DNA of 34,620 bases from positions 1 through 34,620 of the forward strand of contig JAGYNU010000005.1 of NCBI GenBank assembly GCA_018399975.1, given 5' to 3'. The stretch's first letter is position 1, and the number at the start of each line of letters is the position of its first letter. Of this stretch, positions 25,061-31,544 are shown one piece after another. The notes beneath the pieces were generated by a model. It saw nothing but the letters and a program-made list of their open reading frames with translations, made no database searches and had not been told where the DNA came from. The position numbers and the translations under genes were made by a program. Source of the DNA: Candidatus Omnitrophota bacterium (GTDB lineage: Bacteria; Omnitrophota; Gorgyraeia; M55B152).

Positions 25061-25252
25061 TTAGATATGCGAGAAGTGTTTCCAATTTAAGCCTTTTTCT
25101 ATTTGGGGAAGCCCATTTTTTAGAGGGACTCTAGCTCTTCTTATTTCATTATTTATATCGATAATAAATATATAAGTCATTTGTTGCCCACGATGGTTAT
25201 GTTTAAATAATTCTGCCAGTATTTTAAGTTTATTAGTATTTTTATTTTTCAT
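25061..25252 (-). CDS. Unknown small protein, second gene of a coupled pair
   Basis: I do not recognise this 63-residue protein. It starts MKNKNTNKLKILAELFKHNHRGQQ and contains a strand-rich middle (MTYIFIIDINNEIRRARVPL); it has no membrane segment or Cys. The start codon lies 1 base after the stop of the 112-residue gene upstream, so its translation is probably coupled. That arrangement is the main reason to believe it is real. It converges on mnmG. Confidence 0.6.
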   Translation of the reverse strand: MKNKNTNKLKILAELFKHNHRGQQMTYIFIIDINNEIRRARVPLKNGLPQIEKGLNWKHFSHI

Positions 25253-25253
25253 T

Positions 25254-25592
25254 TTAAACCTTTTTGTTCTTTGCTAAATTTACAATTTCGAGTTCATATG
25301 TATGTTCATAATCTATCGGAATAATTTGAGCATTAAATTTTATTAATATTTTTCCTTTTATTTTCCAATTAAATTTTTTGGTATTTTTACAAGTGTCAAT
25401 ATCTTTTAATATATGTATTTCAGGTTTTTTTATAGAAATATTTCTTATGGACCTTAAAGGGTTGTTTATAAAATATTTTGTTTCTCGGTTACTTTCTATC
25501 AGTATATTGTTTTTTCTTAGTATTTCCGTAGCAGATATATTTTTTATTCTTTTGTTTTTTGAAGTTAAATTTTTGAAAATTATTTCTTTCAT
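25254..25592 (-). CDS. Unknown protein, first gene of a coupled pair
   Basis: This 112-residue, Lys/Ile/Asn-rich soluble protein is not recognised. It starts MKEIIFKNLTSKNKRIKN and ends with a strand-like stretch (IKGKILIKFNAQIIPIDYEHTYELEIVNL). One Cys is present. A good ribosome binding site (aaaggag, 6 bases before ATG on the minus strand) supports it. The next gene follows with a 1-base gap. The + strand ORF at 25378-25626 is hydrophobic only because it is the mirror of this gene. Confidence 0.65.
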   Translation of the reverse strand: MKEIIFKNLTSKNKRIKNISATEILRKNNILIESNRETKYFINNPLRSIRNISIKKPEIHILKDIDTCKNTKKFNWKIKGKILIKFNAQIIPIDYEHTYELEIVNLAKNKKV

Positions 25593-25922
25593 TTTTTCTC
25601 CTTTTTTATATTTATGGTTTAAGTAATAAGCAAAAAATATGCCAATTTAATATTTAATTTAATTTTTTATTTTAAGTATCTAATAATAAATAACTTATGT
25701 AATTTGTATGTATTGTTGTGTATCTATTTTAGATATAAAAAGATGATTGATAATAGCCTAATTTGTAAATATTTATTTTATTTTATTTTATTTTTTTACA
25801 CCCTAATTATTTTTTTTTATCAGTAGGCTGTTTCTATTTTTTAAAAACCCTTGAAAGTATTAGTACATAGATGATATAATTCATGCACTGCCAGATTATT
25901 TTTTTTGAAAGGATAGTCTTAT
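25593..25922. other. AT-rich gap between divergent transcription units
   Basis: 330 bases without a credible gene. It is extremely AT-rich, with long T runs around 25770-25820 (repeated ttta units) and a distant AGCCTA/TAGGCT pair. Its 3' end carries the promoter of the DUF167 gene; the opposite end must hold the promoter of the unknown minus-strand pair, which I could not define. Confidence 0.6.
25851..25880 (+). promoter_or_regulatory. Probable sigma-70 promoter of the DUF167-bioY unit
   Basis: TTGAAA, an 18-base spacer and a perfect TATAAT. The start of transcription would fall near 25887, about 36 bases before the ATG, and is followed by a gaaagga ribosome-binding region. Confidence 0.65.
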
Positions 25923-26150
25923 ATGAATATTGAAGTGAAGGTTATTACTAATGCTGTCAAACAAAGAGTTATAAAAGAGTATAGTGGATTGAAAGTTTAT
26001 GTTAATTCTTCGCCTACTAAAGGGAAAGCTAATAAGGAATTAAGAGAGGTTTTATCCAATTATTATAATTTACCTAAATCTAATATAAACATAGTGAAAG
26101 GTATAAAGAGTAGAAAAAAAATAGTGCAAATAAAACAGGAGTTTAAATGA
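25923..26150 (+). CDS. DUF167 (YggU) family protein
   Basis: The 75 residues match the DUF167/UPF0235 family: IEVKVITNAVKQRVIKEYSG, LKVYVNSSPTKGKANKELREVLS, and VKGIKSRKKIVQI. The function is unknown. The family's Lys-Gly-Lys-Ala-Asn segment is intact. Its stop overlaps the bioY start (ATGATG), so the two are coupled, although no shared role is known. Confidence 0.9.
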   Translation: MNIEVKVITNAVKQRVIKEYSGLKVYVNSSPTKGKANKELREVLSNYYNLPKSNINIVKGIKSRKKIVQIKQEFK

Positions 26151-30552: not shown

Positions 30553-30629
30553 CTTTCAGCAAGGTGAATTTGAGATTTCCGGTTGGGTATTTTTTTATCT
30601 GTAATCTTATATTTATCATCTGCCTTATT

Positions 30630-30702
30630 GGCGAGGTAGCTCAGGCGGTAGAGCGCTTGACTGAAAATCAGGGCGTCGGCGGTTCGATTCCGTCCCTCGC
30701 CA
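30630..30702 (+). tRNA. tRNA-Phe (anticodon GAA)
   Basis: A full cloverleaf can be drawn: acceptor GGCGAGG with CCTCGCC, D stem GCTC/GAGC, anticodon stem CTTGA/TCAGG with loop CTGAAAA (anticodon GAA), T stem GGCGG/CCGTC with TTCGATT loop, discriminator A. The next bases are TTC, so the CCA end is not encoded and must be added by an enzyme. The ORF 30537-30749 is an artefact across it. Confidence 0.97.
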
Positions 30703-30766
30703 TTCTCTTCTTAATTTTTTTACTCTATTCTTTTTATTACACTTATTAAAAAAGTTTAAAATCTAT

Positions 30767-30795
30767 TTGACTTTCGTAATTTTATATAGTATACT
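30767..30795 (+). promoter_or_regulatory. Sigma-70 promoter of the first 59-residue peptide
   Basis: TTGACT, a 17-base spacer and TATACT are both near-consensus. Transcription would begin near 30802, leaving a short leader with aggag before GTG 30825. Confidence 0.7.
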
Positions 30796-30824: not shown

Positions 30825-31004
30825 GTGAAAAGAAAATTTTTTTTCTTATTAATTCTAATGATTTTTGTGACATACTGGATAATATGGCCTGTTGAAAGCT
30901 GTTTATCTACAAGTGCTTCTCCTACAGTGGGTAGCGGAAATGGGGGATGCAGTATGGGCCCTATCAATTTCCAATTCAGTGGTTCATTTCAATGCCAGCA
31001 GTAG
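30825..31004 (+). CDS. Small exported or membrane peptide, WPVE-C family, copy 1
   Basis: This 59-residue ORF is too short for the track. It starts at GTG with caggag 8 bases upstream. MKRKFFFLLILMIFVTYW is a basic start plus hydrophobic helix, as in a signal peptide or anchor. WPVESC follows (Cys 26), then a Ser/Thr/Gly linker (ASPTVGSGNGG), CSMGPINFQFSGSF and a third Cys near the end. It is paralogous to 31303-31482, which has the same 59-residue length and the same position of WPVE-x-C. Cys 26 is not in a standard lipobox (VESC). I know no family; a two-Cys extracytoplasmic peptide, signal or toxin-like product is possible but unproven. Confidence 0.75.
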   Translation: MKRKFFFLLILMIFVTYWIIWPVESCLSTSASPTVGSGNGGCSMGPINFQFSGSFQCQQ

Positions 31005-31302
31005 TAATCCTTTCCAATTTCTAACCTTATTTTTACATATATTGTAATAATTTTTCAAATTTCGTGTTATATAAATAAAGAAGTTGAATTTAAATGTTAA
31101 AATATTTTTAAGGTTATATATAAATTTTACAGTTTTTGTATTTTTTTGTTTTTTTATAATAAAAATTTTATTTTTATAATTACTTAATAATTAAAGGTTT
31201 ATATATAAAAATATAAAAATATACTAATTTGGCATTCTATTTGCTTTTATTATTATTAAAAAGAAGATAAATTTTTTTACTTCACAAGGGAGGTGAAGAA
31301 AA
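31005..31302. other. AT-rich spacer between the two peptide genes
   Basis: Nearly 300 bases of very AT-rich DNA with no gene. It contains two AT palindromes, TTATATATAA (31114-31123) and TTTATATATAAA (31198-31209), each preceded by aagg, and the sigma-54-type promoter of copy 2. I see no intrinsic terminator after copy 1. Confidence 0.6.
31229..31245 (+). promoter_or_regulatory. Sigma-54 (-24/-12) promoter of the second peptide
   Basis: TTGGCATTCTATTTGCT fits the YTGGCACGNNNNTTGCW consensus, with GG and GC at exactly the required spacing; only the CG after TGGCA differs. Transcription would start near 31256, 47 bases before the ATG. This is the only convincing match of this type I noticed in the window. 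Confidence 0.65.
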
Positions 31303-31482
31303 ATGAATAAAAAATGGTTTTTATTATTACTGCTTATTGCTTTTGTAATATACTGGATGGTATGGCCTGTTGAGAATTGTCAAGCTACAGGGGCATCTCA
31401 GGTAACTCCGGGGAGCGGTGGTGGTTCTGGTTGTGATCTTGGTCCTGTCCAATGGCAACTGGGTGGCAGCACTAATATGTAG
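31303..31482 (+). CDS. Small exported or membrane peptide, WPVE-C family, copy 2
   Basis: This 59-residue ORF is missing from the track. It has a strong ribosome binding site (gggaggtg, 8 bases before ATG). MNKKWFLLLLLIAFVIYW is followed by MVWPVENC (Cys 26), a linker rich in Gly and Ser (TPGSGGGSG), then CDLGPVQWQLGGS. Shared with copy 1 are YW-x-x-WPVE-x-C, the linker, and C-x-x-GP-x-x-x-Q-x-x-GS; DNA identity is highest over the WPVE codons. A sigma-54-type promoter lies before it and a perfect terminator after it, so it forms its own regulated unit. No function can be assigned. Confidence 0.8.
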   Translation: MNKKWFLLLLLIAFVIYWMVWPVENCQATGASQVTPGSGGGSGCDLGPVQWQLGGSTNM

Positions 31483-31508: not shown

Positions 31509-31544
31509 AAACCCCTCGTTTATTTTAAACGAGGGGTTTTTATT
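31509..31544 (+). terminator. Intrinsic terminator after the second peptide
   Basis: AAACCCCTCGTTTA and TAAACGAGGGGTTT form a perfect 14-base stem with a 3-base loop, followed by TTATT. It is the strongest hairpin in the window and closes the peptide unit. Confidence 0.93.

Follow-up and report, generated by a model that had tools for sequence, protein, structure and literature searches.

The second of two tandem genes for a 59-residue peptide in the genome of a Candidatus Omnitrophota bacterium is very probably read from a genuine sigma-54 (RpoN) promoter that has an upstream enhancer of its own. This reading of the DNA is strongly supported because the genome encodes an intact RpoN and two activators, and because matching sites elsewhere are intergenic and have an upstream enhancer in common. 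Expression of this second gene (copy 2) most likely depends wholly on an activator that binds at 31095-31131 and drives the RpoN polymerase at 31229-31245, while expression of the first (copy 1) is likely basal. The window, the whole stretch of 34,620 nucleotides that was analysed, is all of contig 55 of a genome of 1.18 Mb that is 89% complete.

The promoter of the second peptide gene

A sequence-only reading had placed a sigma-54-type promoter ahead of copy 2, and its location, invariant dinucleotides and spacing are as that reading had them. The motif match, TTGGCATTCTATTTGCT (31229..31245, + strand), has the GG of its −24 element at 31231-31232 and the GC of its −12 element at 31243-31244 with 10 bases between, and fits the sigma-54 consensus TGGCR-N6-TTGCW with 0 mismatches. 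It equals the consensus published for Clostridiales sigma-54 promoters, TTGGCATNNNNNTTGCT (PMC6615313). Exact matches to TGGCR-N6-TTGCW occur at only two sites in the window, this one and 25644-25629 on the − strand, where the second exact promoter, TTGGCATATTTTTTGCTT (25628..25645, −), lies. With the longer pattern TTGGCAT-N4-TTTGCTT and at most one mismatch there are again two, both perfect, against 0.07 expected from shuffled windows, and none of 100 window shuffles reached that number.

The predicted transcription start, placed by its distance from the −12 element, is 31256 (+), 47 nt ahead of the ATG at 31303. The '47 bases before the ATG' of the earlier reading is thus correct as the length of the leader from the predicted start; 57 bases separate the ATG from the motif. 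The strong ribosome binding site and the terminator that were said to complete the unit are both present, the former as AAGGGAGGTG (31286..31295, +) and the latter as an intrinsic terminator of 14 pairs (31509..31539, +).

Related promoters in the genome

The genome was scanned with TTGGCAT-N4-TTTGCTT, and background motif counts were made with TGGC-N8-TGCW. Three perfect and three one-mismatch sites were found, all six of them intergenic; sites with two mismatches are nearly all inside genes. The bare TGGC-N8-TGCW has 42 matches in the genome, most of them inside genes, and its counterpart at spacing 9 has a similar number (37), for which reasons raw motif counts were rejected as proof: real sites are told apart only by their position, the extended consensus and the enhancer. 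One two-mismatch site, C33:11955 (TTGGTATAAAAGTTGCTT), precedes the gene of an exported protein by 51 bases and may plausibly be counted as a weaker seventh member of the regulon, and the genome may accordingly be put at about seven such promoters.

The second promoter in the window precedes a gene for a 112-residue protein, MKEIIFKNLTSKNK... (25254..25592, −), that is conserved in the class, and an ORF of 63 codons directly behind it (25061..25252, −) is probably on the same transcript. The targets elsewhere are a 632-residue exported protein whose resemblance to glucoamylase and DUF3131 is weak and below threshold (C62), a 1271-residue exported protein with no known domains (C13), a 334-residue exported protein in which one stretch is weakly CheR-like (C33, the gene behind the seventh site) and a peptide of 70–77 residues with a hydrophobic start (C54; L054 20-253, −). 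[The last of these is behind a tRNA-Lys gene and a sigma-54 promoter, much as the window peptides are behind a tRNA-Phe gene.] Copy 2 would then belong to a small regulon consisting mostly of exported orphan proteins, with one candidate small RNA, described below.

A probable common upstream enhancer

The predicted enhancer of copy 2, TGTTAAAATATTTTTAAGGTTATATATAAATTTTACA (31095..31131, +), is TGTTAA-N25-TTTACA, one mismatch from TGTAAA-N25-TTTACA, and is 134 bases upstream of the −24 box. That of the 112-residue protein gene (25764..25800, −) matches exactly, and is also in the region common to the divergent gene at 25923. The inverted repeat TGTAAA-N24/25-TTTACA with at most one mismatch is present at five of the seven promoters, where it lies 134–166 bases ahead of the −24 element, the gap being 24 nts on C13 and 25 nts elsewhere. 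At the C33 site there is a two-mismatch version at −150, and upstream of the C62 promoter no enhancer was found.

A gap of 25 alone accounts for four of the seven promoters, a number that none of 500 dinucleotide shuffles reached (mean 0.06). With gaps of 24 or 25 and at most one mismatch the shuffle mean is 0.06–0.16, and none of the 500 came up to the observed five. The shuffle figure is somewhat optimistic, as the enhancer was spotted by eye in the same seven sequences. Among gaps from 5 to 44, 25 is the sole peak and no other yields more than one promoter; the exact gap and the narrow range of distances are stronger arguments for the enhancer than is the shuffle figure. Within the window the motif occurs nowhere but ahead of the two sigma-54 promoters, and promoter and enhancer together precede just two of 34 gene starts, those of the 112-residue protein and of copy 2. 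The background for the enhancer was ~287 kb of redundant stretches of the organism's own DNA rather than the full genome, and its four further matches include none near a sigma-54 site. Known sigma-54 enhancers are 100–250 bp upstream and mostly of the form TGT-N10-12-ACA (PMC6615313). The distance in the Clostridiales regulons is similar to that seen here; however, the halves are here 25 bases apart and the whole, at 37 bp, is unusually long, which counts against the reading, as does the lack of the motif at C62.

The possibility that copy 2 is instead read from an ordinary sigma-70 promoter, its −24/−12 match being due to chance in AT-rich DNA, has to be set against these features. A weak sigma-70-like pair, TTGGCA-16-TATTAT, does overlap the sigma-54 motif and there are other sigma-70-like sites upstream, such sites being common at 29% GC (15 found against 7.2 expected). 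However, in the sister sites a −10-like hexamer has no fixed spacing whereas TTGCTT is fixed (in part by construction of the search), the common enhancer is independent of the promoter search pattern, and the intergenic position of all six of the best sites is not in keeping with chance. The sigma-70 explanation of copy 2 is highly unlikely.

RpoN and its activators

The search of the genome for rpoN and enhancer-binding activators that had been proposed as a check, with absence of rpoN counting against the promoter, found both. The rpoN gene on contig 1 is intact: its product has the activator-interacting (AID), core-binding (CBD) and DNA-binding (DBD) domains, and its RpoN box is ARRTVAKYR. 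An activator gene whose product has the loop GSFTGA starts 32 bases behind rpoN, with which it probably forms one operon (L001 616-2963), and a second, with the loop GAFTGA, is on contig 98. Both products have an AAA+ domain and a Fis-type helix-turn-helix and are without a sensory domain; partner proteins may control them, or the amount of activator itself may do so. Lack of a regulatory domain is a feature of the PspF type of sigma-54 activator, but identity with PspF was rejected, the scores of 282 and 298 bits being far below the curated family cut-off of 443, and no pspA-like target was seen.

The peptide pair

Copy 2 (31303..31482, +) encodes 59 amino acids with an N-terminal membrane helix at about residues 3–29, a Gly/Ser-rich tail, and conserved cysteines at positions 26 and 44. 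Copy 1 (30825..31004, +), also of 59 codons, starts with GTG and is preceded by a tRNA-Phe gene (30629-30703). The products are 53% identical, with WPVE, Cys26, Cys44 and GSG conserved; dN is 0.41 and dS 0.82 (NG86), with second codon positions the most conserved. From the identity and the ratio of these values both copies therefore look like real, constrained genes. An AlphaFold model, made from the two sequences, gives the helix at 3–29 with fair confidence and leaves the tail unsettled (mean pLDDT 61). No lipobox can be read before the first cysteine, where the sequence is VES/VEN-C with Glu at −2, and the peptide as a lipoprotein was rejected on this ground. T-x-A-S at 29–32, conserved in both copies, could be a signal peptidase site. 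No convincing relatives were found in viral contigs, genome contigs or 384 genomes of the class, the weak matches being in unrelated frames, and there was no match in Pfam, NCBIfam, PHROGs or the PDB. The peptide would appear to be a small envelope protein, either anchored in the membrane or exported. The earlier description of it as a 'regulated signal or stress peptide' found no support of its own: no relatives of the peptide are known, and most of the genes regulated with it encode uncharacterised exported proteins.

The leader of copy 2 is predicted to form a hairpin (31272..31301, +) in which part of the ribosome binding site is paired, though the signal is modest (z −1.9). An AGGGA motif is in and beside its loop. 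CsrA control was considered on account of AGGGA and dropped, no CsrA having been found in this 89% complete genome.

Copy 1 has the predicted sigma-70-type promoter attributed to it by the sequence-only reading, TTGACT-17-TATACT (30767..30795, +), which agrees with TTGACA-17-TATAAT at 10 of 12 positions and has the same spacing of 17. Between the tRNA-Phe gene and its GTG start there is no GG-N10-GC of the −24/−12 kind, and an enhancer of its own was not found. That the two copies are under different sigma factors is thus borne out at the level of sequence, and that copy 2 is induced and copy 1 basal can fairly be inferred from the mode of action of sigma-54. A good match to the sigma-70 consensus is silent on repressors, and sigma-54 control of copy 2 could be real with copy 1 also induced, the copies being redundant and without a division into basal and induced forms. 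As copy 1 has neither a −24/−12 site nor an enhancer of its own, such redundancy is rather unlikely, and a basal copy 1 beside an induced copy 2 is the preferred reading.

A candidate small RNA

On C25 a sigma-54 promoter with the enhancer TGTAAC-N25-TTTACA is followed by a stretch without an ORF and then, within ~90 bases of the sigma-54 site, by a strong terminator (~2567-2450, −; L055). The candidate small RNA would be ~80 nt long, with a fold z of −2.5 and UUCCUCUAAAAAACCUCCUC between AUAUAU arms, and carries the anti-Shine-Dalgarno sequence CCUCC. It belongs to no Rfam family at threshold, and no preferential pairing with the mRNAs of the regulon was found; its pairing with Shine-Dalgarno sequences is generic, and copy 2 ranks 8th of the 37 starts tested. 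Qrr, CrcZ and GlmY/GlmZ are sigma-54-dependent small RNAs. The C25 candidate, a predicted RNA, would resemble them in being short, non-coding and transcribed from a sigma-54 promoter with an enhancer; it differs in reaching the threshold of no Rfam family and in having the anti-Shine-Dalgarno CCUCC.

This RNA speaks for a reading of the peptides as a type I toxin-antitoxin-like unit silenced by an antisense or anti-Shine-Dalgarno RNA, as do the small size and hydrophobicity of the tandem peptides and the partial pairing of the copy 2 ribosome binding site in the leader hairpin. However, a Gly/Ser-rich tail in which cysteines are conserved makes up half of each peptide, and type I toxins are not known to have a tail of this kind; no convincing antisense promoter was found over either copy; and the pairing of the candidate RNA is generic, with seven of the starts tested ahead of copy 2. 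A toxin-antitoxin function is extremely unlikely, and an envelope peptide under sigma-54 control is the reading retained.

Conservation in the class

Among the genomes searched none is closer than class. The 112-residue protein family, which begins M[KR]xxxFKNLTS, is present in 58 of 147 genomes of the class and has no Pfam family above cut-off; the family is thus widespread in the class but uncharacterised. No sigma-54 site was found upstream of those of its relatives that were examined, and the homologues of the 632-residue glucoamylase-like protein in the class are without one, the sole exception being a partial match at L147. Exact TTGGCAT-N4-TTTGCTT is present in 15 other genomes of the class, in some cases before genes for pilin-like, FliS-like or exported proteins, and because of these sites it is probable that the class as a whole makes use of sigma-54; membership of the present regulon is probably lineage-specific. 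[The exact sites before prepilin-like genes are in L125 and L140, and those before FliS-like genes in L127 and L139.]

Proposed mechanism and its setting

RNA polymerase with RpoN would bind the −24/−12 elements at 31229-31245 and wait there. An AAA+ activator, in all probability either of the pair that the genome encodes, would bind the inverted repeat at 31095-31131, ~134 bases upstream, loop to the polymerase and open the promoter with ATP. The short, terminated transcript from ~31256 would carry the second peptide only, and the same activator would serve further promoters in the genome, four or five at the least, while the sigma-70 promoter of copy 1 would give a basal supply of the paralogue. 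Taken as a whole, this explanation (an RpoN promoter, an activator at 31095-31131, a short transcript with copy 2 alone and a basal copy 1) is highly likely to be right.

The reconstructed regulons of Clostridiales (PMC6615313) and those of Desulfovibrio vulgaris (PMC4641369) are like the present one in their −24/−12 consensus, TTGGCATNNNNNTTGCT, in enhancers 100–250 bp upstream, in Fis-type AAA+ activators and in targets linked to the cell exterior, toward whose functions sigma-54 regulons tend (PMC4641369). Unlike in those regulons, the targets here are mostly orphan exported proteins and the activators are without a sensory domain. It is conceivable, though we regard it as doubtful in this full form, that in this uncultured lineage a small envelope regulon is under the control of RpoN and just one activator without a sensor, acting through an enhancer of unusual length whose half-sites are three helical turns apart. 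Its members would include an orphan membrane peptide, the twin of which is constitutive, and a small RNA that adjusts the translation of these or other mRNAs by means of its CCUCC.

The sigma-54 mechanism itself is well known, and the genes controlled here are mostly for exported proteins without assigned function. What emerges is the outline of a sigma-54 regulon of compact size (its promoters, its enhancer and its targets) in a lineage whose nearest relatives in the genomes searched share only its class. An orphan peptide thereby gains a regulatory context, and one control circuit links a candidate small RNA with exported proteins that are otherwise unannotated.
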